NCBI RefSeq assembly: GCF_036208045.1
Contig: NZ_CP121472.1
Span: 3,669,531 to 3,733,530 of the forward strand
Source of the DNA: Thiorhodovibrio winogradskyi
Lineage (GTDB): Bacteria; Pseudomonadota; Gammaproteobacteria; Chromatiales; Chromatiaceae
DNA length: 64,000 nucleotides
Direction: 5' to 3'
Below the pieces are notes generated by a model. That model saw only the letters and a program-made list of their open reading frames with translations. It had not been told where the DNA came from and did not search any database. Both the position numbers and the translations under genes were made by a program. Below are positions 15,073 to 53,847 of the stretch, piece by piece. Numbering within the stretch: position 1 is the stretch's first letter; the number at the start of each line of letters is the position of its first letter.

Positions 15073-15096
15073 CAGAAAGAAGAAAGGACTTTCGGC

Positions 15097-15425: not shown

Positions 15426-15472
15426 CAAACCCTCACCGCACGGACCGCAAAGGAATTTAAAGGAGGCGAAGA

Positions 15473-19121: not shown

Positions 19122-19124
19122 ACC

Positions 19125-19443
19125 ATGCCCACACCCGGAGAACGCAAAGCCGTCCAAACCCGGATCCTCGCCTCCGCCGAGGCCATCGGTTGGACAATTG
19201 TGTTCCGCGAGAAAGCCGAGCGCCGGCGCGGGTTTGATCTGGACGCGCCGCCCGCCGACCGCGCCAAAAAATACCGTTCGATCTTCTTCGACGACCTGCT
19301 CGACGCCAAGGTGCGGGAATTCAACCCGCTTTCCGCCCAGACCGAGGGCGCGTTGCTCGGGCAGTTACGCCGTCTCCGGACCAACATCTGCGCCAACCGG
19401 GAATTCATCGAGCACCTGCGCAACCGGGGCAAATGCTTCGACC
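19125..19443 (+). pseudogene. 5' fragment of a second hsdR
   Basis: From ATG 19125 the frame reads MPTPGERKAVQTRILASAEA, EKAERRRGFDLDAPPADRA, IFFDDLLDAKVREFNPLS and NREFIEHLRNRGKCFD. The intact hsdR at 20218 begins MPTPGEHKTVQSRILEYAQA and follows the same path, but the two differ at roughly a third of positions. Similarity stops after about 106 codons, exactly where the intact gene continues NRGKFFDVDAK. The toxin-antitoxin pair begins 64 bp later. This is a leftover of a different hsdR allele. Confidence 0.82.
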
Positions 19444-19506
19444 ACCTCGCAGATGTTCATTGTCGGCGGTCAAACCGCACACCTGATGCTTTTCGGACTA
19501 AAACCC

Positions 19507-19707
19507 ATGAACAACACGCTGATCGAGGCTGAACTTCCTACGGAGCTTGCAGCTCAAGCCCAAGCATTTGTCGCGGCAGGCTGGGCGACGGACTTCAATG
19601 ACCTGCTGGCGGAGGCGCTACGGCGATTTCTTGAGTCCCATGAAGCATCGGTGACCGAATCCTTTATCAAGGACGATATAGAGTGGGGTCTCCATGGAAG
19701 AGACTGA
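19507..19707 (+). CDS. Antitoxin of a PIN toxin pair
   Basis: This 66-residue protein starts at the ATG at 19507. LIEAELPTELAAQAQAFVAAGW, DFNDLLAEALRRFLESH and IKDDIEWGLHG form a short ribbon-helix-helix-like antitoxin followed by an acidic tail. It overlaps the toxin start by 14 bp. The pair is inserted between the hsdR fragment and the intact hsdR. Confidence 0.72.
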   Translation: MNNTLIEAELPTELAAQAQAFVAAGWATDFNDLLAEALRRFLESHEASVTESFIKDDIEWGLHGRD

Positions 19708-20212
19708 CCAGCGACCGCCGCTGGTAGTCTGTGATGCGGGACCGCTCATTCACCTGGACGAAGTCGGGTGCCTGGACCTGTTGGCTGACTTCCCAGTTGT
19801 CTTGGTGCCGGGTGAGGTTTGGCGCGAAGCGCAGCGGCACCGGCCGAGTGTGCTAGTTCAATCTGTTGTGACACTGCGGCAGCTCACATCCACTCGACCC
19901 GTGCCGCCCGCACTCGCCGCCATGGCCCGGCTCCTTTCCCTGCATGCAGGGGAAATGGAGGCGCTTCGGGTTGCGCTGGAGCATGATCCCGCTCTGTTGT
20001 TGACCGATGACACGGCGGCACGCCTGGCAGCCCGCAATCTCTTGATCAGGGCGCATGGAACACTCGGCATTCTGCTGCGCGCGATCCGTCGCGGTCAGCG
20101 GTCGAAGGACGAGCTGATTGAGGTGCTGCGAGAACTGCCCAAAAAATCGACCCTGCACCTGAAGCGCAGTCTTCTGGACGATGTGATCCGCGAAGCCGAA
20201 AGACTCCCCTGA
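19694..20212 (+). CDS. PIN-like toxin (DUF3368-type)
   Basis: This 172-residue protein starts PPLVVCDAGPLIHLDEV, the first acidic block. VLVPGEVWREAQ, LHAGEMEALRVAL with the central glutamate, and PALLLTDDTAARLAARNLL with the second acidic pair follow, then the characteristic AHGTLGILLRAI. All catalytic positions are present, so it should be an active ribonuclease when free of its antitoxin. hsdR starts 5 bp after its stop, so transcription probably continues through. Confidence 0.83.
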   Translation: MEETDQRPPLVVCDAGPLIHLDEVGCLDLLADFPVVLVPGEVWREAQRHRPSVLVQSVVTLRQLTSTRPVPPALAAMARLLSLHAGEMEALRVALEHDPALLLTDDTAARLAARNLLIRAHGTLGILLRAIRRGQRSKDELIEVLRELPKKSTLHLKRSLLDDVIREAERLP

Positions 20213-20217
20213 TACCA

Positions 20218-23139
20218 ATGCCAACCCCCGGCGAGCACAAGACCGTTCAGTCGCGAATTCTGGAATACGCTCAGGCCGTCGGTTGGACCTTTGTGCCCCG
20301 CAAGCAAGCGGAGCAGCGGCGGGGGTTTGACCCCGACGCGCCAGCCGCCGACCGCGCCAGGAGCCGCTCCCTCTTCTTCGACGACCTGCTCGCCGCCAAG
20401 GTGCGGGAATTCAACTCGCGCTACATCGAGGCCGGGGGCGCGTTGCTCGGCCAGTTCCGCCATCTGCGCGCCGACATCCATGGCAACCGGGAATTCGTCG
20501 AGTATCTGCGCAACCGGGGCAAGTTCTTCGACGTGGATGCGAAGCGCGAGCGCGACCTGATCCTGATCGATTATGAGCATCCCGAAAGGAACGTCTACGA
20601 GGTTACCGAGGAATGGGCCTTTCACAACGGCCACCATGGCACGCGCGAGGATGTCGTCTTTCTCATCAACGGCATCCCGGTGCTGGTGATCGAGTGCAAG
20701 AACGCCAACAAGGACGAGGCGATTGCGCTGGGGGTGGACCAGATCCGGCGCTATCACCGCGAGACGCCCGAGCTGTTCGTACCACAGCAGCTGTTCACCG
20801 CCACCGATGCCATCGGTTTTTGCTACGGGGTTAGCTGGAACACGGTGCGGCGGAACATTTTCAACTGGAAGGACGCGGAGGTCGGCAAGCTGGAGGCCAA
20901 GGTGAAGGGCTTCTGCGCCATCCCGCAAATGCTCGGCTTCCTGAAGGATTACATCGTCTTTGCCGAGAAGGACGAGGAGCTGAACAAGTACATCCTGCGC
21001 CAGCACCAGACCGGCGCGGTGGAGGCGGCGGTCCGCCGCGCCCTTGATCCCCTGCGCACCCGCGGTCTGGTATGGCATACCCAGGGCAGCGGCAAGACCT
21101 TCACCATGATCAAGGCGGCGGAGCGCTTGTTCCGCGCGCCCGAGGCGGACAAGCCCACCGTGCTGCTGATGATCGACCGCAACGAGCTGGAAGATCAGAT
21201 GCTGAAGAACCTCGCGGCGCTGGGCCTGGGCAATCTGGAGCACGCCGGCAGCATCGCCCGGCTCAACCAGCTGTTGCGCGACGACTATCGCGGCATCATC
21301 CTGACCATGATCCACAAGTTCCGCGACATGCCGGCGAACCTCAACAGGCGCGCGAATATCTACGTGCTGATCGACGAGGCCCACCGCACCACCGGCGGCG
21401 ATCTCGGCAATTTTCTGATGGCTGGTCTGCCGAACGCGACCTTCATCGGCTTCACCGGCACGCCGGTGGACAAGACAGCTTACGGCAAGGGCACCTTCAA
21501 GACCTTCGGCAGCGAGGACGACCAGGGCTACCTGCACAAGTATTCCATTGCCGACAGCATCGAGGACGGCACGACACTGCCGCTCTACTACCAGCTCGCG
21601 CCGAACGAGATGCTGGTCCCGCACGAGACGCTGGACAAGGAGTTCTTGTCGCTGGCCGAGGCCGAGGGGGTAGCGGACATCGAGGAGCTGAACAAGATCC
21701 TCGAGCGGGCGGTGAATCTGAAGAACTTTCTCAAGGGCAAGAAACGGATCGGGAAGGTGGCCGAGTTCGTCGCCCGCCACTATCGCGAGAACGTCGAGCC
21801 GCTCGGCTACAAGGCGTTTCTCGTCGGCGTGGACCGCGAGGCCTGCGCCCACTACAAGCACGCGCTGGACAAGTTTCTCCCGCCCCAGTATTCGGAGGTC
21901 GTCTATACCGGCAGCAACAAGGACTCGAAGCGGCTGAAGGCATTCCATCTCGAACCGAAGCGGGAGCGGCAGATCCGCAAGAGCTTCAGCAAGCTCGACC
22001 AGCAACCCAAGATTCTCATCGTCACCGAGAAACTGCTGACCGGCTTCGACGCGCCGGTGCTCCATGCCATGTATCTCGACAAGCCGATGCGGGATCACAC
22101 CCTGCTGCAGGCCATCGCCCGGGTGAACCGCCCCTATGAGAACGAGGCGCGGGAGATGGTGAAGCCCCACGGCTTCGTGTTGGATTTTGTCGGCATTTTC
22201 GACAACCTGGAAAAGGCGCTGGCCTTCGATAGCGACGAGATCAACGCCATCGTCAAGGACCTGAAGCTGCTCAAGGTGCTGTTCAAGAACAAGATGGCGT
22301 CCGAGGCTCCGGCCTACCTCGGCCTGATTGAGCGCCACTTCAACGACAAGGACGTGGACACCCTCATCGAGCACTTCCGCGACCCCGAGCGGCGCAAGGC
22401 GTTCTTCAAGGCGTACAAGGAAATCGAGATGCTCTACGAGATCATCTCGCCCGATGCCTTTCTGCGGCCTTTCATGGACGACTATGCCACCCTGTCCGCC
22501 ATCTACGCGGTGGTCCGCAAGGCGTACAGCAAACGCGTGTCGGTGGACCGAGATTTCCAGCGCAAGACCAACCAGCTGGTGCAGGACCAGGTCAGCATCT
22601 ACGAGGTGCAACGCGTCGACGGGCTGGTCGAGATCAATGCCGAGACCATCGAGCTGATCAAGCAGCGCCAGGGCGGCGACGCCACCAAGGTGATCAACCT
22701 GATCAAGGGCATCGAGCGCAAGGCCGAGGAGGAGAGCGAGGACCCCTACCTGATCGCCATGGCCGAGCGCGCGCGGGCGGTGCAGGATGCCTTCGAGAGC
22801 CGCCAGCTCGACACGGCGGAGGCCCTGGCGGCACTGCTGCGGGAGGTCGAGTCGAACGAGACCCGAAAGCAGGAGCAGGCCGAGAAGTCCTTCGATGGCC
22901 TGACCTATTTCGTCTACCGGACCCTGTTGGATGCCGGCATCGGCAACCCCGAGGCCGTCAGCCGCAAGATCCGGCTGGCCTTTGGGGAATTCTCCAACTG
23001 GAAGCGAAGCGAGAACGCCTTGCGCGAGCTGCGCAAGCAGGTGACCTTCGCGCTCTTGGCCGAGACGGAGGATCTGGACCGGGTCACGACATTGGTGGAT
23101 GAGCTATTCACACTGCTCGACAAGGCGCAGCGGATCTAA
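20218..23139 (+). CDS. hsdR: Type I restriction endonuclease subunit HsdR
   Basis: This 973-residue protein supplies DNA translocation and cleavage to the HsdMSR complex. The nuclease domain shows DVVFLINGIPVLVIECKNANK near residue 158 with the E-x-K catalytic pair. The helicase motor has the Walker A HTQGSGKTFTM near 290, VLIDEAHRTTGG (DEAH) near 386, FTGTPVDK, and LTGFDAPVLHAMYLDKPM with QAIARVNRP as motifs V and VI. The C-terminal helical part is complete. Length is normal for the family. It follows the toxin gene at 5 bp. Confidence 0.95.
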   Translation: MPTPGEHKTVQSRILEYAQAVGWTFVPRKQAEQRRGFDPDAPAADRARSRSLFFDDLLAAKVREFNSRYIEAGGALLGQFRHLRADIHGNREFVEYLRNRGKFFDVDAKRERDLILIDYEHPERNVYEVTEEWAFHNGHHGTREDVVFLINGIPVLVIECKNANKDEAIALGVDQIRRYHRETPELFVPQQLFTATDAIGFCYGVSWNTVRRNIFNWKDAEVGKLEAKVKGFCAIPQMLGFLKDYIVFAEKDEELNKYILRQHQTGAVEAAVRRALDPLRTRGLVWHTQGSGKTFTMIKAAERLFRAPEADKPTVLLMIDRNELEDQMLKNLAALGLGNLEHAGSIARLNQLLRDDYRGIILTMIHKFRDMPANLNRRANIYVLIDEAHRTTGGDLGNFLMAGLPNATFIGFTGTPVDKTAYGKGTFKTFGSEDDQGYLHKYSIADSIEDGTTLPLYYQLAPNEMLVPHETLDKEFLSLAEAEGVADIEELNKILERAVNLKNFLKGKKRIGKVAEFVARHYRENVEPLGYKAFLVGVDREACAHYKHALDKFLPPQYSEVVYTGSNKDSKRLKAFHLEPKRERQIRKSFSKLDQQPKILIVTEKLLTGFDAPVLHAMYLDKPMRDHTLLQAIARVNRPYENEAREMVKPHGFVLDFVGIFDNLEKALAFDSDEINAIVKDLKLLKVLFKNKMASEAPAYLGLIERHFNDKDVDTLIEHFRDPERRKAFFKAYKEIEMLYEIISPDAFLRPFMDDYATLSAIYAVVRKAYSKRVSVDRDFQRKTNQLVQDQVSIYEVQRVDGLVEINAETIELIKQRQGGDATKVINLIKGIERKAEEESEDPYLIAMAERARAVQDAFESRQLDTAEALAALLREVESNETRKQEQAEKSFDGLTYFVYRTLLDAGIGNPEAVSRKIRLAFGEFSNWKRSENALRELRKQVTFALLAETEDLDRVTTLVDELFTLLDKAQRI

Positions 23140-24334: not shown

Positions 24335-24880
24335 TCAATTCAACTTCTCGATCACACCGCAGGCAATGCGCGGCCCGGCCGCGCCAGCGGGTTGAGACTG
24401 GTAATCATCCGGGCCTTGATGAATGACCACTGCAGCGCCGTCGTCATCAAAGATTTGCGCGTCCATGTCCGAGACGCGCGTCATCACCTCGAGATTCAAC
24501 TGGCCGCTATCCGGCACATGGATATTGGGCATGTCGCCAAGGTGCGGCCCTGCCTCGGGAATGTAGCCGTGTGCACGTGGCGTCTCGCCGGTGAGATGAC
24601 CGCCAGCGGACTTGAACGGCGGTTCACACAGGCCCGTCTCATGCAGATGGAAGGCATGCACGCCGCTCGGCAGACCATCAAGCTTTGCGTAAAGCAGCAC
24701 CCCATTCGGGGTCTCGGCCATGGTGATTTCTCCGACCTTGTTGCCGTCGCGATCATGCAGTTGGCTTTCGCCCAGGGTCGCCGTGGCGCCGGCCGGAAGG
24801 CTGAGCAGCATTCCAAGGCAGGTCGCGGGCAAGACAAGCCATGCATGGCGACGAAACGATGTGGAATTTGTGTGAGGCAT
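24335..24880 (-). CDS. sodC: Superoxide dismutase [Cu-Zn], periplasmic
   Basis: This 181-residue protein begins with a signal peptide ending near PAGATA. VHAFHLHETGLC (H78, H80, C85), GGHLTG (H95), AHGYIPEAGPHLGDMPNIHV (H104, D116) and VVIHQGPDDYQSQPAGAAGPRIACGVI (H154, R171, C174) supply the copper and zinc ligands, the disulfide and the guiding arginine. It removes superoxide in the periplasm. phhB lies downstream on the same strand with a 68 bp gap. Confidence 0.95.
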   Translation of the reverse strand: MPHTNSTSFRRHAWLVLPATCLGMLLSLPAGATATLGESQLHDRDGNKVGEITMAETPNGVLLYAKLDGLPSGVHAFHLHETGLCEPPFKSAGGHLTGETPRAHGYIPEAGPHLGDMPNIHVPDSGQLNLEVMTRVSDMDAQIFDDDGAAVVIHQGPDDYQSQPAGAAGPRIACGVIEKLN

Positions 24881-25349: not shown

Positions 25350-25763
25350 ATGGCCGATTCGACCAAGGGTCTGCATGAAGACCCGGCTGAACTCAGCGCA
25401 CTGACCCAGGACGTGCATCGCGCGCTTGTCTCTCTGCAAGAAGAACTCGAGGCGGTCGACTGGTATCGCCAGCGCGCCGAGGCCTGTCGCGACGGCGAGT
25501 TACGCGCGGTGCTCTTGCATAACATGCGCGAAGAAATCGAGCACGGCGCCATGGTGCTGGAATGGCTGCGCCGCCGCGATGCCGCCTTCGATGAGCATCT
25601 GCACACCTACCTCTTCACCGAAGTACCGATCACCGAAGCCGAGGAAGCCGCGACCCAGGGCGATGCACAGACCGCCGCGGAAAACCCCGCTCGCGAGCGC
25701 CGCCCGGCGCCGCCGCGAGGACTCACCCTTGGCAGTCTGAAACAACCCAACCAGGAGGTTTAA
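25350..25763 (+). CDS. Encapsulated ferritin-like protein (EncFtn cargo)
   Basis: This 137-residue protein starts at the ATG at 25350 with AAGGAG upstream. LQEELEAVDWYRQRAEACRDGEL and VLLHNMREEIEHGAMVLEWLRRRD give the two helices. E32, E62 and H65 fall at the numbers of the ferroxidase ligands of Rhodospirillum rubrum EncFtn. After an alanine/proline-rich linker the C terminus carries LTLGSLKQ (residues 125-132), the cargo-loading peptide of family 1 encapsulins. It should oxidise Fe(II) and be packed into the shell encoded 3 bp downstream. Confidence 0.94.
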   Translation: MADSTKGLHEDPAELSALTQDVHRALVSLQEELEAVDWYRQRAEACRDGELRAVLLHNMREEIEHGAMVLEWLRRRDAAFDEHLHTYLFTEVPITEAEEAATQGDAQTAAENPARERRPAPPRGLTLGSLKQPNQEV

Positions 25764-25765
25764 GA

Positions 25766-26572
25766 ATGAGTAATCTGAATCGCGAGGCCGCTGGCCTGCC
25801 CGAATCCGTCTGGGAACGCATCGATGCGAGCGCGCTCGATGCGGCGAGCGACCTGCTCACCGGGCGCCGCTTCCTGGATCTCGACGGCCCTTATGGCCTG
25901 GGGCTGACCAGTCTCGAGGCGGGTCCGGAAACCATGGCCGAGGATGCCAGTGACGACCTGGCCGCGACCATTGGCAGTCGCGCGCTGCCGGTGCCGCTGC
26001 TGCAACGCTCATTCAGCCTGAGCCGCCGCCGCATTGAGGGACACATGGACCTCGGGCTGCCGCTCGATCTGCGCGCCGCCGAGGACGCCGCCGAAGCCGT
26101 CGCCCGCCGCGAAGAGCAGGTCATCTACCAGGGTGTGCCGGAACTTGGCCTGGAAGGTTTGCTAAACGCCAGCGGCCGTGCCACCTCGCCCGCTGGCGAT
26201 TGGACCCAGGTCGAGCAGGCGCTCGATGATGTGCTAAACGCGGTCAACCAGCTCGACGCCAATGGCTTCAGCGGCCCTTATGCCCTGGCGCTGTCGCCGG
26301 CCCGTTACAACGCCCTGTTCCGCCGCTACCAGTGCGGCGACATGCTACAAGTCGACCATCTGCGCCGCCTGTGCGAGGCCGGCGTCCATAAGGCCCCCAT
26401 CGACGGCGCCGTGCTGGTCGACCCGCGCGTTGGCGAGCTCAAGATCGGCCAGGATCTGCGCGTCGGCTTCGCCGCCAGCGACGGCATCCATCTGAAGCTG
26501 TTTATCTCCGAAAGCCTGGTGTTTCTACTCGATGATCCAGCGGCGATCTGTACTCTGGACGGCGACGGCTGA
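25766..26572 (+). CDS. Encapsulin shell protein, family 1
   Basis: This 268-residue protein starts after AGGAGGTTTAAGA. It has the HK97-like encapsulin sequence: LPESVWERIDASALDAASDLLTGRRFLDLDGP, then VPLLQRSFSLSRRRIEG, GLPLDLRAAEDAAEAVARREEQVIYQG, PYALALSPARYNALFRR, and at the C terminus AASDGIHLKLFISESLVFLLDDPAAI. The length suits a 60-subunit or larger nanocompartment. With the ferritin-like cargo it forms an iron storage and detoxification organelle in the cytoplasm. The intact two-gene operon is among the best preserved loci in the window. Confidence 0.95.
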   Translation: MSNLNREAAGLPESVWERIDASALDAASDLLTGRRFLDLDGPYGLGLTSLEAGPETMAEDASDDLAATIGSRALPVPLLQRSFSLSRRRIEGHMDLGLPLDLRAAEDAAEAVARREEQVIYQGVPELGLEGLLNASGRATSPAGDWTQVEQALDDVLNAVNQLDANGFSGPYALALSPARYNALFRRYQCGDMLQVDHLRRLCEAGVHKAPIDGAVLVDPRVGELKIGQDLRVGFAASDGIHLKLFISESLVFLLDDPAAICTLDGDG

Positions 26573-32632: not shown

Positions 32633-33604
32633 TCAGCCCCGCGCCGCTTGCCAGTAGCATTGCAGGCGTCGGTCGAGCTGCTTCGGCTTCTCCGCGTACA
32701 GGCGAGAGCCGAGTCCATGGGCGGCCTCGCGAAGTTGCGCGCTGCGCTGCGCGCTCAGCGCGAGCAGGATCTGCTCGGGGTCGCGGTTTGGGCTGAACGC
32801 ATCGGCCTGGTCGATGAGCTGCTCGAGCACCGCAAGATCGTGGTCATCGCCAAGCAGGTCGCCGAGGTGCTTGGCCTCCTTGTAGGTCGCTTTGAGCACG
32901 CGTGGCCAGGCCGCGCGTACCAGTCTCAGGTGATAGCGCAAATACTTGGCGCGCTTGCGCCATTCATGGAAAGCCGCGACGCTCGGCTGCGCGTAGGCAT
33001 CCTGCATGGCCCGACGGCCGCGTTGGTAGGTCTTGTGCAAGCCGGCCCCGATCAATGACCAACCGGCTTCCCCGTGCGCATCGGCGTGAGCACGATCAGT
33101 TGGAAGCACCCACTCCGGAACGCGCTCGCGGGCCGCGACCAGGGCGGTGCGCGCCAGATCAAGCTGCTCGTCGAGTGCTTGAGCACCGGCCGCGACCGAG
33201 GCCTTGTGATCCTCGAACCCTTGCCGCAGTGGCGCGAGCGACTCAGGATCGAGATTCGCGCGGAAATGGTCGATCAAGGCGTCAAAGGTCTCGATCGCCG
33301 CCTCGGCATCGCGCAGCCCCGAGAGCGCGGCGGCGGCATCGCGAAAGACCGCGTTTTCCTGCTTGTAGAGACTCGGCACCGCCGGTCGAATCAGCCGCAG
33401 CAGGCCGCGCAGCTTTTTGCAATCCTTGCGAACCTCGTGCACGGCTTCATGGGGCGCGGCCTCGGCGGCTTCGATCTGGGCAAGCGCATGATCGATCAAG
33501 TTGATGGCAATGCGTCGGACCTCGGCGTCAAGCGGCTGTGCTGGGTCGAGTTCGTAGGCCATGGGCCTCCGACCGCCGCTGGGTTCGGCGTTGCTGTTGG
33601 GCAT
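32633..33604 (-). CDS. CHAD domain protein
   Basis: This 323-residue protein starts at the ATG at 33604 with GGAGG upstream. Two halves each have the CHAD signature: APHEAVHEVRKDCKKLRGLLRLIRPAV and VAAFHEWRKRAKYLRYHLRLVRAAW, with the conserved histidine and basic residues that bind polyphosphate, and HLGDLLGDDHDLAVL near the end. CHAD proteins attach to polyphosphate granules. The gene follows the transaldolase-transketolase fusion (81 bp) on the same strand. Confidence 0.88.
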   Translation of the reverse strand: MPNSNAEPSGGRRPMAYELDPAQPLDAEVRRIAINLIDHALAQIEAAEAAPHEAVHEVRKDCKKLRGLLRLIRPAVPSLYKQENAVFRDAAAALSGLRDAEAAIETFDALIDHFRANLDPESLAPLRQGFEDHKASVAAGAQALDEQLDLARTALVAARERVPEWVLPTDRAHADAHGEAGWSLIGAGLHKTYQRGRRAMQDAYAQPSVAAFHEWRKRAKYLRYHLRLVRAAWPRVLKATYKEAKHLGDLLGDDHDLAVLEQLIDQADAFSPNRDPEQILLALSAQRSAQLREAAHGLGSRLYAEKPKQLDRRLQCYWQAARG

Positions 33605-33685: not shown

Positions 33686-36600
33686 TCAAGCGGCGATGGC
33701 CAGCGCCTCACGCTCAATCTGCCGGCCCGAGAGCCGATGGCGCTCCAGCAGTTGTTCTGGCGCGCCAGAGCGCGGATCCCCGCTGACCCCAAGCCGGAAC
33801 ACCCGAGCGAGCCGCCCGATCTGGGCCGCGACCGCGTCACCAAGCCCAGCGTCGCGATGATGGTCCTCGACCACCAGCAGGGTTCCGGTCTCCTCGGCGG
33901 CCCGCTGCAGGGTCGCCACATCGAGCGGCTTAATCGAGTAGGCATCGATCACCCGCGTGTGCACGCCCTGCTCGCGCAGGCGCGCGCTCGCCTCCAGGGC
34001 GGTGTGAACCGTGATGCCGGCGGCCACCAGGGTGAGGCGGTCATCGAGCGATTCCACCAGGGTCTTGCTACCGCCGATCTCGAACCGCTCGTCGGACGGG
34101 TAAAGCACCGGCGTCTTGCCGCGGGTGGTGCGCAGATAGACCATGCCGTCGTGCTCAAGCCCGGCCTCGGTCAAGCGCTCGGCGCTGACGCCATCGCTGG
34201 GATAGAGCACCGTGGTGCCATTGAGGGCACGGAACATCGCGATGTCCTCAAGCCCCATCTGCGAGGGGCCGTCCTCGCCGATCGACACCCCGGCATGGCT
34301 GCCGCAAATCAGCATGCGCGGATGTTGCGAATGGGCCGCCATGCGGATGCTGTCGAAGGCGCGGGTCAGAAAGGCGGCGAAGGTCGCGACACAAGGCCGC
34401 TTGCCGCTGGCGGCAAGGCCAAGCGCCACCCCAAGCATGTTCTGCTCGGCGATCCGCGCCTCGACAAAGCGTTCGGGATAGGTCTCGGCGAACAACTCGG
34501 TCTTGGTGGAGTTCTTCACATCGCCATCGACCACGACGAGATCGGCGAAACGGCTGCCGAGCTTCCGCAGCGCCGTGCCGAAGGCGGCGCGGGTCGCGAC
34601 CTCCTCGCCGCGTTCATACGCGACCTTCAGCGGCGGTTGACTGTACTCTTGCGCGTCTTCCCTGGTGTTCCGAGCGATGGTCGCGCGCCTCGGCTCGGCA
34701 CGCGGCACGCGGCGCGGCTCCATCTCTAGGCGGACCTCCGGCGCGGCGATCCCGGCGAGCGCTTGGGCCAACTGCTCCTCGTCGAGCGCCTTGCCGTGCC
34801 AGCCCGCGGCGCCTTCGAGGAAGGAGACCCCCTTGCCCTTGATGGTTCGCGCGATGATCGCTGTCGGACGGTCCCCGGGAGCCCCGGAATCGGAGGCTCG
34901 CGTCGCCTTGAGCGCCGGCAGGATGGCGGCGAAGTCGTGGCCGTCGATCTCCAGCGCGCGCCAGCCGAAGGCACGGAAGCGCCCGGCCAGCACCGAGGTG
35001 TCGTGCCCGTAGGGGGCCGGTCCGCTTTGCGCGAGGCCATTGGCATCGACGATGGCGACGACCTGCCCGAGTCCTTGATCGGCGGCGAATTGCGCCGCCT
35101 CCCAGACCGACCCCTCCGAGCACTCGCCATCGCCGAGCAGGCAGAACAGCCGAGCCTCGATCCCGTCGAGGCGATCCGCCAAGGCCATGCCATTGACGGC
35201 GGAGAGGCCCTGCCCCAGGGAACCGGTGGCGACCGGAATCCAGGGATTGCGCGGGGTCGGATGGCCCTCCAGATCGCTGTCGTGCTGTCGAAGGGTGAGC
35301 GGATCGGTGCTGATCGCCCCGGCCTCGAACAAGGCCGCCCACAGAATCGGCGCGGCATGGCCCTTGGAGAGCAGGAAGCGATCCTGGTCGCGAGCGCCGG
35401 GCGCGCTCGGGTCCCAGCGCATCTCGTGGAAGAACAGCGCGGTGATCAGGTCGGCGCACGACAGTGATGATGTCGCATGACCCGAGCCGGCATGACTGGT
35501 CATGCGCAGCACCGATGCGCGCAGACGCTTGGCTTGGCCGAGCAGCGGCGAGGCACGCCCCGTCGCCGCCCGGGCATCCCGGAAGCGCTCCATGCGCTCG
35601 GCGAGTCGCTGTAGCAGCTGATCATAGGGGTCGATGAACTTCTGCACCCCGTCGGCGACCAGCTGATGGGTGATGGCATCAAGGTCGATCGCGAGGTTGC
35701 GCTCCAGGCGCTCGAGCAAGGTCGCCGCCTCGGTGAAGCGCTCGGGCGCCGGCACCTCAATGCGGCCGTGGTCGTTGAAGGCGTCCGCGGTCGCCTCGGG
35801 CATGGTCGAGATGGTCTCCGGCAGGATCAGTGCGTCGATGTAGTGGGTGTCCGACAGGCTCGGGTCCTTGGTGCCGGTACTGGCCCAGACCAGCCGTTGC
35901 GGACGCGCGCCGGCCTTGGCCAATCGCTGCCAGCGCTCGCTCTCGCCGACCTCGCGATAACGCGCATAGGCCAGCTGGGCGTTGGCGACCGCGGTGCGCC
36001 CGAGCAGGGACTCGGCCTCGGCGACAAGGCCCGCGCTGACCCGCGCACCCATGCGCTGGCGCAGTTCGCGATCCACGGCGGTGTCGATCCGGCTCAGGAA
36101 GAAGCTGGCCACCGAGGCGACGCTATGCAGATCCTTGCCATCGCGCAGCCGCTGCTCCATGGCACGCAGGTAGCATTGCAGGGTCTCCTCGTAGGCATCG
36201 CGGCCGAACAGCAGGGTGATGTTGACCTTGATGCCATCCACCAGCAACGCCTCGACCGCATCCAAACCTTGCGGCGTACCCGGCACCTTGATGAACAGGT
36301 TGGGACGCCCGACCCGGTCCCAGAGTTCGCGCGCCTGTTGCCGGGTCGCGACCGCGTCGTAGGCCAGGTGCGGCGAGACTTCAAGACTGACGAAGCCGTC
36401 CAGGCCGTCGCTCGCCTCATGGAGCGGCAACAGCAGATCACAGGCATCGCGCACGTCATCGGTCGCCAGGCGTTCGTAGACGGCCTCGGCCGGGGCCGAG
36501 CCGTCCTCCGCCAGGGTGTTGAGCGCGGCGGCGATGCGCGCATCATAGGCCGGCGAGTCCGCCATGGTCTTGGCGAAGATCGCAGGATTGGAGGTGATCC

Positions 36601-36724
36601 CGGACAGACCCTGCTCGCGGATGCGCGAGGCCAGTTGGCCATTATCGAGCATGTCGCGTGACAGGCTGTCGAGCCAGAAGCGCTGGCCGTGGTCGTTGAG
36701 CTTGGCGAGTTGGTGATGCGGCAT
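33686..36724 (-). CDS. Transaldolase-transketolase fusion protein
   Basis: This 1012-residue protein starts after GGGAGG. Residues 1 to about 375 are transaldolase: SGITSNPAIFAKTM, LEVSPHLAYD, LFIKVPGTPQGLDAVE with the Schiff-base lysine K146, and VWASTGTKDPSLSDTHYIDAL. From about 395 on it is a full transketolase: SHAGSGHATSSLSCADL, KGHAAPILWAAL, GDGECSEGSVWEA for thiamine diphosphate, ARIAEQNMLGVALGLA with the proton-transfer glutamate, and the C-terminal domain. It joins the two non-oxidative pentose phosphate enzymes, whose pathway interconverts sugar phosphates. Both halves keep their motifs. Confidence 0.93.
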   Translation of the reverse strand: MPHHQLAKLNDHGQRFWLDSLSRDMLDNGQLASRIREQGLSGITSNPAIFAKTMADSPAYDARIAAALNTLAEDGSAPAEAVYERLATDDVRDACDLLLPLHEASDGLDGFVSLEVSPHLAYDAVATRQQARELWDRVGRPNLFIKVPGTPQGLDAVEALLVDGIKVNITLLFGRDAYEETLQCYLRAMEQRLRDGKDLHSVASVASFFLSRIDTAVDRELRQRMGARVSAGLVAEAESLLGRTAVANAQLAYARYREVGESERWQRLAKAGARPQRLVWASTGTKDPSLSDTHYIDALILPETISTMPEATADAFNDHGRIEVPAPERFTEAATLLERLERNLAIDLDAITHQLVADGVQKFIDPYDQLLQRLAERMERFRDARAATGRASPLLGQAKRLRASVLRMTSHAGSGHATSSLSCADLITALFFHEMRWDPSAPGARDQDRFLLSKGHAAPILWAALFEAGAISTDPLTLRQHDSDLEGHPTPRNPWIPVATGSLGQGLSAVNGMALADRLDGIEARLFCLLGDGECSEGSVWEAAQFAADQGLGQVVAIVDANGLAQSGPAPYGHDTSVLAGRFRAFGWRALEIDGHDFAAILPALKATRASDSGAPGDRPTAIIARTIKGKGVSFLEGAAGWHGKALDEEQLAQALAGIAAPEVRLEMEPRRVPRAEPRRATIARNTREDAQEYSQPPLKVAYERGEEVATRAAFGTALRKLGSRFADLVVVDGDVKNSTKTELFAETYPERFVEARIAEQNMLGVALGLAASGKRPCVATFAAFLTRAFDSIRMAAHSQHPRMLICGSHAGVSIGEDGPSQMGLEDIAMFRALNGTTVLYPSDGVSAERLTEAGLEHDGMVYLRTTRGKTPVLYPSDERFEIGGSKTLVESLDDRLTLVAAGITVHTALEASARLREQGVHTRVIDAYSIKPLDVATLQRAAEETGTLLVVEDHHRDAGLGDAVAAQIGRLARVFRLGVSGDPRSGAPEQLLERHRLSGRQIEREALAIAA

Positions 36725-36796
36725 GCTGGTTTCCTCCCGATGATGCTGGTTGGGTCATTGACTGCGTCACAGATGCTCTGCAAGAGCGAGGCCAAA

Positions 36797-37117: not shown

Positions 37118-37261
37118 ATGTTGCATCCAATCCTCCAACCCCTGATTGCATTGATCGCCGGAATTCTGATCCTGGTCCGGCCCGCGCTGCTCAGTTACAT
37201 CGTCGCGATCTACCTGATCGCCGTCGGCGTGCTTGGGCTGCTTGGCATGGCTGGGGGCTGA
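37118..37261 (+). CDS. DUF3096 small membrane protein
   Basis: This 47-residue protein starts at the ATG at 37118 after ACAGGAGAAAACGCG. PLIALIAGILILVRPALLSYIVAIYLIAVGVLGLLG contains two hydrophobic helices joined by a short arginine-proline turn, the full DUF3096 pattern. It probably sits in the inner membrane. Members occur beside stress genes; the function is unknown. Confidence 0.8.
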   Translation: MLHPILQPLIALIAGILILVRPALLSYIVAIYLIAVGVLGLLGMAGG

Positions 37262-37546: not shown

Positions 37547-38014
37547 TTAACGCAGCGGGGTCTTAAACAGCCGCTCCGGCAAACGCGCCCGCACGCCATC
37601 GGCATCATGGCGGGTCAAATCCTTATCGATCTCAAGCACGACCTGGCGGGCTGTCTCATCCGGCAAGCGCTTGCGCAGCAGGCCGAGAAAGGCCGGCGGC
37701 GCCACCAGCCCGAGCATCTCGAAGCGCTGCTCGGCTCTGGCCTGATCCAGGATCTCGGCGAGCCGTTTGGCGAAGCGCTCGGCCTCGACATCTCCCGGCT
37801 GCGTGCTCGGCTCGAGCGTGTGGCCTCCTTGCCCAGCCGAGCCGAACCCCCGACCGGGGCGGTCCGTGACCAAATCCTGGTCCAGGAGGCGGCTGTTGGG
37901 CTCGATGAAATCCTGGATTTCGGTGAGCGGGCCGCGCGAACTCTCGGCCGCGTAGAGCGCGGCACGACCGGCATCGGCCACGATTAACCAGAGTTTTGAA
38001 TTAGGATTAGGCAT
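37547..38014 (-). CDS. Host attachment family protein
   Basis: This 155-residue protein has KLWLIVADAGRAALYAAESSRGPLTEIQDF, RGFGSAGQGGHTLEPSTQPGDVEAERFAKRLAEIL and GLVAPPAFLGLLRKRLPDE. This is the complete host-attachment (AtsE-like) domain, related in fold to the eRF1 middle domain. The role is unclear despite the name. It is a frequent member of stress islands with BON and PRC-barrel proteins. A 167 bp gap without genes separates it from the OB-fold protein gene on the same strand. Confidence 0.85.
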   Translation of the reverse strand: MPNPNSKLWLIVADAGRAALYAAESSRGPLTEIQDFIEPNSRLLDQDLVTDRPGRGFGSAGQGGHTLEPSTQPGDVEAERFAKRLAEILDQARAEQRFEMLGLVAPPAFLGLLRKRLPDETARQVVLEIDKDLTRHDADGVRARLPERLFKTPLR

Positions 38015-40769: not shown

Positions 40770-41376
40770 TCAGAGCAGCAGCAGGCTGAACGCCATGACC
40801 GCCATGCCAGCGACCAGCGCGTACACTGTTGGATTGTGCTCACCATAGGCCTCGGCTGCGGGCAGTAACACATCGAACGAGATGAAGATCATGATCCCGG
40901 CGACCGCCGGCAACGACAGACCCAACAAGGCCTGCGACCAAAAGCCCGACAAGATCAACAGGCCGAGCAACGCACCGAGCGGCTCGGACAGCCCTGAGAG
41001 CGCGGACCAGCCGAACGCCTGCCAGCGGCTGCCGGAAGCCTCCGCGTTTGCCGCGCTGCCAGGAGAGTCCTGCGTGCCCTCAGAGTCCAGTGTGCCAGGA
41101 GCGCGCATCTCATGCGGGTTGTAGCCAAGCGGAACCGAGCGGTCGATCACGGCGACCAGCAGCATGCCGACGAACAAAGCAACAACGGCAGTGGTTTGCG
41201 GCGCGCTGCTGATCTCCTCAAGCGCGTCGATGCCGGATGGCAGCAGCTCAACGAACGGAGACCTAGATCATCACTCCCGCCGAGAACCCGAGCGCGATCC
41301 CGAGGAAGCGGGTGTCGGCGCGAGGGGCAAAGAAGGCGATCGCGCTGCCAATCGCAGTGCCGAGGCCGGCAAGCAT
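40770..41376 (-). pseudogene. ZIP family metal transporter (ZupT-like), frameshifted
   Basis: From ATG 41376 the frame gives [37 protein letters not shown], then TAG where the family has tyrosine. One base further on, the frame shifts to VELLPSGIDALEEI, followed by FVGMLLVAVIDRSVP, WSALSGLSEPLGALLGLLIL, AGIMIFISFDVLLPAA and AGMAVMAFSLLL. The histidine normally found before or in the metal-binding helices (HNFPEG) is missing between the two halves. One stop, one extra base and a deletion inactivate it. Confidence 0.72.
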
Positions 41377-42300: not shown

Positions 42301-45300
42301 CTAGCACTCCTCCTGCTCCGTGAGGCTGGAAAGCACGCGGATCGCCGCACCTAGCTCGGCTGAGACCCCGGATACCCCTTGCGGCTCCAGCATCCGATCC
42401 CGCTCCAGCACATTCCACAGCCGCGTCGAGGCTCCGTGCAGCGCCAACAGACGAGTGAGTGCAGCCTCCTGTGTCGGCGATTCCGGCCAACTCAGTGCCC
42501 CGCCCGCGGCCGCGAGTGCGTCCCGATACGCGCTCAGGAATCGACGGCATATCCGGCCACGCCAATCAATGATCGCATCGACAACGGGCCTGCGCTGGAC
42601 AGCGCTTAAAGGATCGATACAGACCGCCTGCACCGCCTCGTCGGCAACCTCATGAAACGACCTCAGAACCCGGGCCACATCGGCCAGCGGGCTCTGCTTC
42701 TCAGGTGTCGCTTCCGCTGTGCGTTTCCAGCCAACCCCAAAGTCGATGAAGAAGATGTCGTTTTCGACCACGAGCATCCCGCTCAGCGTCGGATCGCCAT
42801 GGACGCGGATGCGCAGCGCGGTGCAGCCATCGCTATCAAGATCGGCACCGGCGCTCACACTGACATCAGCATTGGCATTGGCATCGGACATTGGCCGCAG
42901 CACCTCGTCGCGTTGCGCAAGCAGTGCCGTTGCCAGTGGCCTCACCTCATCGGGTAGCGTCTCGTGAGAGCGTTCGAGCCGCGTCAGTGTGCACTCCAAG
43001 TCATCAGCGATCGAAGCGGCCCAGGTCGCGAGCGCCTCTGCATCGGTCCGCTCTGGGGCGAAGACAGCACCGGCATCCTCTCGAGCGAGCGCCTGGTGAA
43101 GCTCGGCAAGGCGGCGTCCGACATTGTCGATCAGCGTCTCGTAGCTCAGGTGGGCCGCATCGGCCTCCCAGCCTTCGATGTGCTCGCCGTGGGCATCGCA
43201 GAGCCGGGAAAGCAGCTCGAGCGTGAAGGTCCGCAGATTGCCCTGGTTGTGGATGTACTCTTCAAGAACCGCCAAGGTGCAGCCCCCCTGTTCGCCAGTT
43301 CGGTAGCTGAGCGAGCCTGCGAGCGCGGGGATGTTGGCGAAGCCAGCGACCTCTTGGAGGTATTGCCGGATCTCGATGCCAGGATCAAGCGCGGGATCAA
43401 TCAGGGGTGTTTCTTCGTGCGTTGATGCGACCGATGATGCGCTGGCCGATGTCCTGGACGCACAAGGCAACAACTTGAGAACCAATTGATCGCCGAGCGC
43501 GGCACTATGGCCGGCATCTTCGGGCGGAATACGCACCTGGGCTCCGGCGCAAGCGGAGGTCAGCCGCTCGAAGGCTTTCGTTGGCGCACCTGAGAGCGCC
43601 CCGTCGCCGAGCGCCAGCTCCGATCCGCCACCGATCAAAGCGATCATCGCGTGCACGAATCCGGGGTCGGCGAGTGCATCACAGAGCAGGCCGGGGGTCG
43701 CATGGCGCCGCGCCCGCGAGAGCGTGGTCGCCGCGGGCGACGCAGCGGTCAGCTCGGCGCCCTCCTGTTGCCAGACCAGCCAAAGCGGCAGCAACATTTG
43801 CGCGCGATGGCCATCGGCGAGATCGATGTCGATCAGGGTCAAGAGCCAGTCGCGCCAGACCTCGATGGCGCTGAGCCTCACCGCGCGCCGGCCATCGCTC
43901 GGAGTCCTTTGGAAACGATGGCCGAGGTAACCGGGGAGAATTCGCTCCTCCAGCAGGCGCAACGCGCGCCGCGCCGGCTCGGGCCGCTTGGCCCGGTCCG
44001 GGCGCAGGCTCCGCCACCCTTCCGGCAGGACCAGCGTCGCCAGACGCGGCGCCGGGAGCCGTTCGTCGTGCCACGCGGGAGCGTCATCTTGATCGGAGAG
44101 CAGGAACCAATAGAAGCCATGGCCCGCAAGGGTGAGCAGATAGGGCAGCTCGCCGATCGGCGGAAAGGGCGTGCGGCCCAGCAGCTCGATCGGCACGCGT
44201 CCCTGAAACCGCGCCAGGTCGAGTTCGACCGGTTGCGCGCCGCGGCCGAGATTGACGACACAAAGCAGGATCTCGTGCTTGTCCTTGGCGCCCTCCGGAA
44301 TCGGGTCGGCAGCGGTCGACTCGCGCACATAGGCCAACACCTTGCGGTTGCCCGGATGGAGAAACTCGATACTGCCGCGCCCGAACACCCGATGCGCCTT
44401 GCGCACCTCGATGATGCGCCGCATCCAATTCAGCAGCGATGAGGCTGAGCGGGACTGGGCCTCGGCGTTGACCGACTGATAGCCATAGACCGCATCCATG
44501 ATCGGCGGCAGATAGAGCTGCTCCGGATCAGCGCGGGAGAAGCCGGCGTTGCGGTCGGGCGTCCACTGCATGGGGGTGCGCACCGAATTGCGATCACCCA
44601 GATAGATATTGTCCCCCATCCCAAGCTCATCGCCGTAGTAGAGGATCGGTGAGCCCGGCATCGACAACAGCAGGCTGAACATCAGCTGGATCTTGGTCGG
44701 ATTGTTGTCGAGCAGGGGTGCAAGCCGCCGACGGATGCCGACGTTGACGCGCATGCGCGGGTCCGTCGCATAGGTCTGATACATGTAATCGCGCTCGCGG
44801 TCGCTGACCATCTCCAGGGTCAGCTCGTCGTGATTGCGCAGGAACAGCGCCCACTGACAATCGGCTGGGATGTCGGGGGTCTGCTCCATGATCTCGACGA
44901 TCGGATGCCGGTCCTCCTGAGCCAGTGCCATGTACATGCGCGGCATCAACGGGAAGTGGTAGGCAACATGGCACTCGTCGCTGTCGCCAAAATAGTCGCG
45001 CACGTCCTCGGGCCATTGATTGGCCTCGGCCAGGAACATCCGATTCTCGTAATGGGCGTCGACCACCGCCCGCATCTGCTTGATGACCGCATGGGTCTCC
45101 GGAAGATTCTCGTTGCTGGTGCCGTCGCGCACGCAGAGGTAGGGGATCGCATCGAGGCGCAGGCCGTCGACGCCGAGATCGAGCCAGGCGCGCATCACCC
45201 GGATTATGGCCTTCACCACCTGCGGGTTGTTGTGGTTCAGATCCGGCTGATGCGCGAAGAACCGGTGCCAGTAGTACTGCTCGGCAACCGGGTCCCAGGT

Positions 45301-45816
45301 CCAGTTCGAGGCCTCGCTGTCGGTGAAGATGATGCGGGTCTCGGAGAAGCGGCTGTCGTCGTCGCTCCAGACGTAGAAGTTGCGCTTGCTCGAGCCCTTC
45401 GGCGCCCGGCGCGCGGCCTGGAACCAGGGGTGCTGATCGGAGGTGTGGTTGATGATCAGCTCGATGATGACTCGAATGCCACGGCGGTGCGCGGCACTGA
45501 TGAAGCGACGAAAGTCACGCCTGCTGCCGTAGGTCGGATGGACATTGCGATAGTCGCTGATGTCGTAGCCATCGTCGCGCATCGGCGACGGATAGAACGG
45601 CAGCAGCCAGATCGCGTTGACGCCAAGTGCTTGCACGTAGTCGAGCTTCTGGGTCAAGCCGCGAAAATCGCCCGTGCCATCGCCGTCGGTATCGAAAAAG
45701 GCCTTCACATGGGCCTGATAGATGATCGCGTCCTTGTACCAGAGCGGATCGGCGGTCGGGATCTCGGCATCGGTGAAATCAAGGTCGGAAAGATCGAGGT
45801 TGGAGAGATCAGGCAT
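42301..45816 (-). CDS. treS: Trehalose synthase-maltokinase fusion
   Basis: In this 1171-residue protein, residues 20 to about 580 are a GH13 trehalose synthase that interconverts maltose and trehalose. WYKDAIIYQAHVKAF, INHTSDQHPWFQ, DGLRLDAIPYL (nucleophile D222), FLAEANQWP (acid/base E264) and LRNHDELTL (D330) are all present. The rest is a maltokinase-type domain that would make maltose 1-phosphate. Its catalytic loop reads VHGDPTLSGML and its metal loop FIDFGVGW, where typical maltokinases have HGDYHLGQ and DFEGEP, so kinase activity is doubtful. It is divergent from treZ with a 454 bp gap. Confidence 0.92.
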   Translation of the reverse strand: MPDLSNLDLSDLDFTDAEIPTADPLWYKDAIIYQAHVKAFFDTDGDGTGDFRGLTQKLDYVQALGVNAIWLLPFYPSPMRDDGYDISDYRNVHPTYGSRRDFRRFISAAHRRGIRVIIELIINHTSDQHPWFQAARRAPKGSSKRNFYVWSDDDSRFSETRIIFTDSEASNWTWDPVAEQYYWHRFFAHQPDLNHNNPQVVKAIIRVMRAWLDLGVDGLRLDAIPYLCVRDGTSNENLPETHAVIKQMRAVVDAHYENRMFLAEANQWPEDVRDYFGDSDECHVAYHFPLMPRMYMALAQEDRHPIVEIMEQTPDIPADCQWALFLRNHDELTLEMVSDRERDYMYQTYATDPRMRVNVGIRRRLAPLLDNNPTKIQLMFSLLLSMPGSPILYYGDELGMGDNIYLGDRNSVRTPMQWTPDRNAGFSRADPEQLYLPPIMDAVYGYQSVNAEAQSRSASSLLNWMRRIIEVRKAHRVFGRGSIEFLHPGNRKVLAYVRESTAADPIPEGAKDKHEILLCVVNLGRGAQPVELDLARFQGRVPIELLGRTPFPPIGELPYLLTLAGHGFYWFLLSDQDDAPAWHDERLPAPRLATLVLPEGWRSLRPDRAKRPEPARRALRLLEERILPGYLGHRFQRTPSDGRRAVRLSAIEVWRDWLLTLIDIDLADGHRAQMLLPLWLVWQQEGAELTAASPAATTLSRARRHATPGLLCDALADPGFVHAMIALIGGGSELALGDGALSGAPTKAFERLTSACAGAQVRIPPEDAGHSAALGDQLVLKLLPCASRTSASASSVASTHEETPLIDPALDPGIEIRQYLQEVAGFANIPALAGSLSYRTGEQGGCTLAVLEEYIHNQGNLRTFTLELLSRLCDAHGEHIEGWEADAAHLSYETLIDNVGRRLAELHQALAREDAGAVFAPERTDAEALATWAASIADDLECTLTRLERSHETLPDEVRPLATALLAQRDEVLRPMSDANANADVSVSAGADLDSDGCTALRIRVHGDPTLSGMLVVENDIFFIDFGVGWKRTAEATPEKQSPLADVARVLRSFHEVADEAVQAVCIDPLSAVQRRPVVDAIIDWRGRICRRFLSAYRDALAAAGGALSWPESPTQEAALTRLLALHGASTRLWNVLERDRMLEPQGVSGVSAELGAAIRVLSSLTEQEEC

Positions 45817-46170: not shown

Positions 46171-46270
46171 CTGACAGGCTCTAAATCGCAGCGAGCGCAC
46201 GCCGCCCGATCACAAGGCAAGCCAGAACGGCGTGGTCTCAGAGCAAAATGATTCGATAGAGGAGCCTGGC

Positions 46271-48222
46271 ATGTCGAGCTCGAAACACCGGATGCCCTTC
46301 GGCGCGGAATCTTTGTCCGACGGCAGCCTTCGCTTTCGCCTTTGGGCACCGGCGGCCGATCAGGTCGTGCTGCGGCTCTTCAACGGCGATGACGAGCAGG
46401 ACCTGGGCATGAACAGCGCTGGCGACGGCTGGTTTGAGCTGGCCACGGCGAGCGCCCGGCCGGGGATGCGCTATGCCTTCCGCATCGCCGGCGAGCACGT
46501 CGAAGGCCAGCAGACCCTGCCCGACCCCGCCTCCCGCTTCCAGCCAGCCGACGTTCACGGCCCGAGCGAGATCATCGAGCCGAACGACTTCCGCTGGCCG
46601 GACGGCGAACCCTGGCGTGGACGCCCATGGGAAGAAGCGGTCTGCTACGAACTGCATCTCGGCACCTTCTCGCCCGAGGGCACCTTTGCTGGCGCGGCCA
46701 AGCGACTGGATCAGCTCGCTGATCTCGGCGTCACGGTCGTCGAGCTGATGCCGGTGGCGGCATTTCCCGGTCAGCGCAACTGGGGCTACGACGGCGTGCT
46801 GCCGTTCGCGCCGGACGCCAGCTACGGCCGCCCCGAAGCGCTCAAGGCCCTGGTGCAAGCCGCCCATGATCGCGGCCTGATGATCCTGCTCGACGTGGTC
46901 TATAACCATTTCGGCCCCGAGGGTAACTATCTCCACCTCTATGCCCCGCGGTTCTTCAACGCGGAACACCAAACCCCCTGGGGGGCGGCGATCAACTTCG
47001 ACGGCCCCGACAGCCGCACAGTGCGTGACTTTTTCATCCACAACGCGCTGTACTGGCTTGAGGAATATCGTTTCGATGGCCTACGCCTGGATGCCGTGCA
47101 TGCGATCGCCGACGGCTCCGAGCCGGACATCCTGACCGAGCTGGCCGACGCCGTTCAGAACCAGTTCGGACCGCGCCGGCTGGTGCACCTGGTCCTCGAG
47201 AACGATGGCAATGAATCCCGTTATCTGGCTCGGCGCCCGAACGGCATGGCGTATTGGTACCGGGCGCAATGGAACGACGACTTCCACCACGCCGCCCACG
47301 TGCTGATGACCGGCGAGGACGACGGCTATTACGCCGATTACAGCGAGGCGCCGGCGCGTCACCTCGCCCGCTGTCTGGCCGAGGGCTTCGCCTATCAGGG
47401 CGATCCCTCGCCGTTTCGCGATGGCGCCCGGCGCGGCGAACCCAGCGCGGGCTTGCCGCCGAGCGCCTTCATCAACCTGCTGCAGAATCACGATCAGATC
47501 GGCAATCGCGCCTTCGGCGAGCGCATCGCCACACTCGCCGTTCCCGAGGCGCTGCGCGCGCTGAGCGCGGTGATGCTGCTGGCGCCCTCACCGCCGTTGT
47601 TGTTCATGGGGCAGGAATTCATGACCGAGACCCCGTTCCTGTTCTTCTGCGACTTCGGCGACGACCTTGCCGACTCGGTCACCGAGGGACGGCGGCGCGA
47701 ATTCCAGCGCTTCGAGCGCTTCGCTGATCCCCAGGCGCGCGAGGCCATCCCGGATCCGAACGATCCGGCCACCTTCGAGCGCTGCCGGCTCGACTGGGAG
47801 GCGCTCGAGGGTGATCCCCGCCACCGCGAATGGCACCACTTCCATCAGGAGCTGCTGCAACTGCGCCAGCGCGAGATCGTCCCGCGCCTGGCCGGGGTCG
47901 AACCGGGCCAGAGCCGCTTCGAGGTCGTCGCGCCCCCTGTCATCCAGGTGCAATGGCGGCTCGGCGACGGCGCCGTTCTGACCCTGACCGCCAACCTCGG
48001 CGACAGTGATCGGCGCTGTGATGCACTGCCGATACCCATGCCGTTGAATGGCGAGGGCGGAGCGCTGTATCTGGAGCCGACGGGTCTCGCCGACGCGCTC
48101 GCTGAGCGGCATCTGCCACCCTGGGCGGTTGCCTGGCATCTCGCCTCCCCAGCACTGAGTCCAGATTTGGGCCATCCCCAACCGGTCGGCAAAGACAGCC
48201 AGACTCACGAGGTGACCGAGCC

Positions 48223-48226
<4 letters not shown>
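46271..48226 (+). CDS. treZ: Malto-oligosyltrehalose trehalohydrolase
   Basis: This 651-residue protein starts at the ATG at 46271 with AGAGGAG upstream. It releases trehalose from the end of malto-oligosyl trehalose. The N-terminal domain (RFRLWAPAADQVVLRL) is of the early-set type. GH13 motifs are LLDVVYNHFGPEGNY, FDGLRLDAVHAI with the nucleophile near 273, LVLENDGNESRYL with the acid/base glutamate near 308, and NLLQNHDQIGNRAFG. ALMLLAPSPPLLFMGQEF is also visible. It overlaps the MalQ-TreY gene as ATGA, so production is coupled with TreY. Confidence 0.95.

Positions 48227-53847
<5,621 letters not shown>

Follow-up and report, generated by a model that had tools for sequence, protein, structure and literature searches.

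It has long been asked whether there is a gain in holding enzymes of central sugar metabolism together, and the question is raised by a gene of Thiorhodovibrio winogradskyi (Chromatiaceae) that joins a transaldolase and a transketolase in one polypeptide. The gene lies in a stretch of 64,000 nucleotides (contig NZ_CP121472.1, positions 3,669,531 to 3,733,530) that was analysed as a whole and is referred to below as the window; other sequences and genomes bear our own handles (L or G with a number). Combined, the two activities turn three pentose phosphates into two molecules of fructose-6-phosphate and one of glyceraldehyde-3-phosphate. What, then, does the fusion do in the cell, and does the joining itself matter? 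Judging by the sequences compared here, it is an accessory enzyme that probably serves the non-oxidative pentose phosphate pathway with both activities.

The Fusion Protein and Its Active Sites

A sequence-only reading of the window had described the transaldolase as standing first in the common chain, with the catalytic residues kept and only a short linker before the transketolase, and this description held in all its parts. The open reading frame is intact (Table 1), and both halves exceed the cut-offs of their NCBIfam families (448.8 bits with a cut-off of 367 for the transaldolase NF002881, and 866.7 bits with a cut-off of 488 for the animal-type transketolase NF004559). The Pfam match to TAL_FSA (PF00923) reaches 240.3 bits with a cut-off of 27 (E 3.5e-71), and the transketolase half carries all three Pfam transketolase domains. 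Identity with the known bifunctional Tal-Pgi (NF007080) was considered and rejected: the score of 444.3 bits lies below the cut-off of 712, the model is matched only over positions 5–381 of 949, and neither Pfam nor NCBIfam gave a phosphoglucose isomerase match at the C-terminus. Scanning for promoters and terminators gave nothing useful.

Functional positions were located in an alignment of 24 fusions through alignments to solved transaldolase and transketolase structures. All 26 catalytic or cofactor positions checked, 10 in the transaldolase and 16 in the transketolase half, are identical in 24/24 sequences. They are D19, N46, E115, K146, N168, T170, S207, R212, S282 and K286 in the former and include H416, H456, H488, GDG 531–533, N562, H643, E760, H810, D818 and R865 in the latter. 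For the roles of the residues, and for their numbers in the known enzymes, we rely on what is established, K146 being presumably the Schiff-base lysine. In a separate comparison of the window protein with seven others, it keeps 17 of 17 positions of the human transketolase (TKT). An AlphaFold2 model of the window fusion, computed as a monomer, has a mean predicted local distance difference test score (pLDDT) of 84.6 and a predicted template modelling score (pTM) of 0.63; its transaldolase half resembles 3r5e and 7bbx (TMt 0.94–0.96) and its transketolase half resembles human TKT (TMt 0.92). With the active sites so preserved, both activities are very probably present.

In the model the end of the transaldolase, the linker and the first transketolase helix all belong to a single helix (residues 348–411). 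From P366, the last transaldolase residue that is fixed, to L401, the first such residue of the transketolase, the span in between measures 30 residues in 20 of the 24 fusions and 34 in the other four (the window, L018, L019 and L025), a difference that would come close to one helical turn. The mean pairwise identity of the linker core is 23%, compared with 59% for the transaldolase and 68% for the transketolase half; in that alignment the transketolase's own inner linker has lengths of 52 to 73 residues. A length that is fixed while the sequence is free points to a spatial constraint and suggests that the linker acts as a rigid spacer. A rigid geometry of the joined halves seems rather likely.

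Companion Genes and Distribution

The genome of T. winogradskyi, a single contig of 5.48 Mb, also encodes a canonical transketolase of 689 residues, an animal-type transketolase that stands alone (L002, with 65% identity to the transketolase half of the fusion), a canonical transaldolase whose frame has 344 codons, another standalone transaldolase (L003), a transaldolase relic with 81–89% DNA identity and two glucose-6-phosphate dehydrogenases. Since canonical and standalone genes of both kinds are present, the fusion is an extra copy. L003 had appeared to run into a transketolase as well, and none was found after its stop. An adjacent pair resembling a split transketolase lies at about 1715740–1717807 of the same genome (L007:1174-2232 and L006:1357-2529), with the N part in a 353-codon frame and the Pyr and C parts in a 391-codon frame. 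In L002 (1336-3309) two otherwise fixed cofactor-site positions are changed, to N at the place of human H77 and to S at that of G154, and the standalone transketolase of a sister species (L172:7231-9144), whose genome lacks the fusion, retains H and G there. The changes in L002 are perhaps decay where the fusion is present.

It had been held earlier that the fusion would be standard metabolism if it were the only such enzyme in relatives, and that separate housekeeping genes should be sought. Among 31 genomes surveyed, 25 carry an intact fusion and the remainder split, frameshifted or standalone versions. Canonical transketolase accompanies the intact fusion in 25 of 25 genomes and a further TAL_FSA gene in 22 of 25; those without it are the genomes of L031 (a small draft), L033 and L034. 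The fusion is not the only such enzyme in its carriers; it is an accessory one beside housekeeping copies.

As to how widespread it is, which the earlier reading had also raised, the fusion is rare. In the window's family 13 genomes out of 210, from 6 of 61 genera, have it full-length, with one more truncated at a contig end and one split into two reading frames; Bradyrhizobium has 5 intact fusions in 195 genomes, besides one partial and one broken; an even draw of Pseudomonadota gave 0/397 apart from the window's own. A fusion in one reading frame was found in 24 other genomes. Among the named carriers, several of them metagenome drafts, are Lamprobacter, Halochromatium, Thiohalocapsa, Allochromatium, Thiobacillus, Methylocaldum, Methylocapsa, Methyloversatilis, Rhodocyclaceae and Bradyrhizobium sp. 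WSM3983. The closest relatives of the window protein are the Lamprobacter and Halochromatium fusions (82–84% identity). None of 72,556 plasmid records had a single place covering 80% of the protein, and the 13 records that match it do so essentially with the transaldolase half alone. This rare and patchy spread looks like that of an accessory, sometimes transferred gene.

Origin of the Fusion

Trees were built from 58 transaldolase and 59 transketolase rows, the 27 fusion rows including one split and one frameshifted sequence. In the transaldolase tree the fusion rows form one clade with the standalone L104 and L015 (99*), and in the transketolase tree with five standalone proteins, namely L040, L041 with L042, and L002 with L014 (99*). 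Monophyly of the fused transketolases to the exclusion of these standalone ones was rejected (approximately unbiased test, p-AU 4e-6). The mirror-tree distances of the two halves agree with r = 0.93 over 26 fusions, and 0 of 2000 permutations gave a value as high. Moreover, the Thiobacillus transketolase L040 starts with KSIDPQDAFT, a stump that matches the end of the transaldolase half in syntenic fused relatives; for each of three references 0 of 2000 shuffles did as well. From the nesting, the topology test, the congruent halves and the stump of L040 we conclude that, as far as the sequences tell, the fusion is old and arose once, and that the transaldolase half was lost at least three times afterwards. 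A linker remnant on the standalone transketolases L002 and L014 was sought too and is unconvincing (in the best case 86 of 2000 shuffles were as good). In the family member G045 (L013:3258-3723) transaldolase and transketolase stand in two overlapping frames that share ATGA where they meet, which may mean that they were split recently, that they form a coupled pair or that the sequence is in error.

Gene Neighbourhood

The flanks of 24 fusions were compared with 35 control flanks (19 canonical tkt and 16 canonical tal loci, drawn from part of the same genomes) for neighbours within 8 kb. An encapsulin gene was found in 5 of 24 fusion flanks and 0 of 35 controls (Fisher p 0.008, uncorrected for the number and choice of queries or for kinship). 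In Thiohalocapsa, encapsulin and its ferritin cargo divergently adjoin the fusion in four of five loci (L022, L023, L024 and L035, not L021), and in the window they lie 7 kb from it. An encapsulin is encoded in 12 of the 25 intact-fusion genomes, within 8 kb of the fusion in five and at about 24 kb in Allochromatium. The chance of one lying that close is about 0.35% per genome; with Thiohalocapsa counted once the tally is 2/9 (p ~4e-4). In the sister genome G002, which has a standalone transketolase and lacks the fusion, encapsulin lies 11 kb and SodC 2 kb from that transketolase. SodC is directly upstream of the fusion in L025, with a partial match likewise in L018; in T. winogradskyi a SodC gene lies 9 kb from the fusion in the window, and SodC also lies 2 kb from the transaldolase relic. 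The shell and cargo genes of the window (25353-26572) make up a complete iron-storage nanocompartment pair, the C-terminal GLTLGSLK being presumably cargo-peptide-like, and a second encapsulin is encoded at 1101670 of the genome.

The earlier reading had seen a stress-specific pathway hinted at by an adjacent CHAD gene and nearby glucan genes. The CHAD gene does adjoin the fusion, 81 bp past its stop. As a key, polyphosphate-related partner it was dismissed: CHAD is near 2 of 24 fusions, and weak CHAD matches occur at 6 of 16 canonical tal loci, so that a linkage neither conserved nor specific to the fusion is no evidence for a stress role. The TreS-maltokinase and TreZ genes are likewise real, but they lie 5.6 to 11.5 kb away and are not conserved neighbours (TreS within 8 kb of 1/24 fusions, TreZ of 0/24). 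What stands of the stress hint is thus carried by encapsulin/ferritin and Cu/Zn superoxide dismutase, and not by CHAD, TreS or TreZ.

Elsewhere the setting differs, as judged from neighbouring genes picked by codon bias, which keeps antisense reading frames out. Two Rhodocyclaceae (L028 and L039) have the run fusion-GH15-gnd-zwf; Thiobacillus-type loci have cydAB upstream and a PLD/VTT gene downstream; Bradyrhizobium loci have an HtrA-like protease upstream and L038 a rhodanese. Synteny of the standalone-transketolase loci with the window was examined and dropped, as DUF3096, CHAD and SodC are nearby there in rearranged order.

Table 1. Coordinates of the fusion gene, its parts and neighbouring features in the window.
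Feature	Position	Strand	Basis or remark
Transaldolase-transketolase fusion gene	33686..36724	-	single intact ORF, ATG start, 1012 aa
Shine-Dalgarno-like GGGAGG ahead of the fusion ATG	36733..36738	-	by-eye reading
Transaldolase half, TAL_FSA, residues 16-373	35606..36679	-	Pfam
Added linker, ~residues 379-394 (about 15 residues)	35543..35590	-	within predicted continuous helix 348-411
Transketolase ThDP-binding domain, Transketolase_N, residues 399-655	34760..35530	-	Pfam
Transketolase pyrimidine-binding domain, Transket_pyr, residues 708-871	34112..34603	-	Pfam
Transketolase C-terminal domain, Transketolase_C, residues 888-1003	33716..34063	-	Pfam
CHAD-domain gene	32633..33604	-	Pfam; likely ATG at 33604, own Shine-Dalgarno-like site
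Small DUF3096 membrane-protein gene	37118..37261	+	divergent, ~0.4 kb upstream of fusion; start codon inferred
baeRF family 12 / Host_attach gene	37547..38014	-	Pfam
TreS-maltokinase gene	42301-45816		
TreZ gene	46232-48226		
Cu/Zn superoxide dismutase-like gene	24335..24880	-	below NCBIfam cut-off
Encapsulin-associated ferritin-like cargo gene, C-terminal GLTLGSLK	25353..25763	+	NCBIfam
Family 1 encapsulin shell gene	25766..26572	+	NCBIfam

After TreZ the window encodes a protein of 1874 residues (48223-53847) with a GH77 4-alpha-glucanotransferase at 198-718 followed by an alpha-amylase-type domain, probably a fused MalQ-TreY. A ZIP transporter copy with an internal deletion (40770-41375) shares the window with the intact fusion, and elsewhere in the genome the transaldolase relic (residues 1-36 joined to 94-164, L170:8938-9249) stands beside an intact ZIP gene (L170:7571-8406); the arrangement looks as if a duplicated module had decayed reciprocally. 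At 13220-23139 lies a type I restriction run of HsdM, an AAA_13 protein (750 residues) and HsdR.

Discussion

Because the products of each half are the substrates of the other, a single chain would hold the complete rearrangement. The transketolase half would convert two pentose phosphates into sedoheptulose-7-phosphate and glyceraldehyde-3-phosphate, the transaldolase half would turn these into erythrose-4-phosphate and fructose-6-phosphate, and the transketolase half would then combine erythrose-4-phosphate with a second xylulose-5-phosphate; one chain could in this way carry out each of the three carbon rearrangements (3 C5 to 2 C6 and C3) at a fixed 1:1 stoichiometry. The spacer, conserved in length and predicted to be helical, would set two transaldolases at defined places around the transketolase dimer. 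After a single origin the fusion probably spread patchily among Alpha-, Beta- and Gammaproteobacteria, in addition to the housekeeping enzymes there, and it was split several times later. Together with glucose-6-phosphate dehydrogenase and 6-phosphogluconate dehydrogenase it would close an NADPH-making cycle, and in the Chromatiaceae pentose phosphates would probably be recycled to hexose phosphate, the oxidative branch continuing to yield NADPH under oxidative or iron stress. The encapsulin/ferritin and superoxide dismutase genes nearby suggest such a use, and we find the stress role nearly as believable as doubtful. The Rhodocyclaceae gene run suggests that glucan breakdown feeds the same cycle. 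Real substrate channelling is rather doubtful. The fullest picture, a geometrically fixed machine for the whole non-oxidative pathway that passes intermediates between sites ahead of competing enzymes and recycles hexose for NADPH under oxidative or iron stress beside encapsulin/ferritin and superoxide dismutase, we regard as unlikely. A published model took this very pair of enzymes to compute when proximity helps (PMC6345930).

Several observations weigh against parts of this account. A straight rigid helix is unsure because the pTM is 0.63, the linker block has a pLDDT of 68, and proline or glycine is present in several linkers. The break-ups imply that the fused state is not essential, and on the transaldolase side the topology test did not reject monophyly of the fused sequences (p 0.14), so that fission is unsupported there. 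In the neighbourhood, the queries were drawn from the fusion loci themselves, four of the five encapsulin-linked loci belong to one genus, and no neighbour is common to most fusion loci; SodC (2/24 against 0/35, p 0.16) is not significant, and zwf (5/24 against 4/35, Fisher p 0.27) shows no clear enrichment.

Some of these points lend themselves to a plainer explanation, which we hold to be a real possibility: an isozyme of ordinary pentose or glycogen catabolism, in which the joining does no more than ensure co-expression and 1:1 amounts, the tether being long and nothing being channelled. The fissions on the transketolase tree, three or more, make the linkage look dispensable, the neighbours vary widely among lineages, and the GH15-gnd-zwf run reads as glucan breakdown; a Sphingobium plasmid cluster, rpiA-tkt-(tal-pgi)-gnd with a glucoamylase, repeats the theme with a different fusion. 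A near-exact linker length at so low an identity would, however, be unexpected for a loose tether, and the encapsulin linkage does not fit either. The two halves might also have been joined several times independently, given that tal and tkt are often adjacent genes in bacteria (PMC5702140), and the standalone transketolases nested in the fusion clade could then be ancestral. This is improbable in the face of the same order, the same linker length and the congruent halves, and the L040 locus, with its transaldolase stump, is syntenic with the Thiobacillus-type fusions.

That one half is catalytically dead and scaffolds or regulates the other is a still weaker candidate and very improbable: paralogues can decay, as L002 may have done at its two cofactor-site positions, but the invariance of the checked positions in every aligned fusion and the scores of both halves above the NCBIfam cut-offs speak against it. 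An assembly or gene-calling artefact, which three split or frameshifted related loci (L013, L045 and G857) might bring to mind, has practically no chance, the gene being unbroken in a genome of one contig and in 24 others, named isolates among them. An accessory enzyme with both activities is thus the reading that we prefer.

Its relatives are instructive. Tal-Pgi likewise has a related N-terminal transaldolase fused to another sugar-phosphate enzyme and also occurs in pentose-pathway gene clusters, but its C-terminal partner is phosphoglucose isomerase; PMC4378227 and PMC6191907 mention it for Sulfobacillus and Gluconobacter. The mobilizable plasmid pTK2 of Sphingobium sp. TKS (L169:5116-17278) carries rpiA, tkt, tal-pgi, gnd, pgl and a glucoamylase-family gene, with tkt and tal-pgi as separate genes. 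In an open frame of 1239 codons at L105:382-4098 the transaldolase occupies 384-736 and the phosphoglucose isomerase 783-1037, with about 380 unmatched codons ahead. Human TKT, the best Protein Data Bank match of the transketolase half in sequence and fold, shares the checked cofactor and substrate positions but stands alone. The Corynebacterium and Neisseria transaldolases (3r5e and 3clm; 37–39% identity, TMt 0.94–0.96 to the transaldolase half), to which the transaldolase half comes closest in sequence, are unfused too. The Neisseria enzyme has a lysine-cysteine switch. As described in PMC11237513, which also treats a split archaeal transketolase, the Rpe-Tkt(N) fusion of Thaumarchaeota is another natural link between transketolase and a pentose-pathway enzyme; there, however, it is ribulose-phosphate 3-epimerase that is joined, and to no more of transketolase than its N-terminal part. 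Among the matches listed from the open-licence PMC literature we found no description of a transaldolase-transketolase fusion. Already in print are transaldolase fused to phosphoglucose isomerase and the N-part of transketolase fused to the epimerase.

The unfused members of the clade, L040, L041, L042 and L002/L014 for the transketolase and L104/L015 for the transaldolase, offer a natural comparison of the joined with the separate state. If the stress role is true, the stress genes of purple sulfur bacteria would include an extra enzyme of the pentose pathway.

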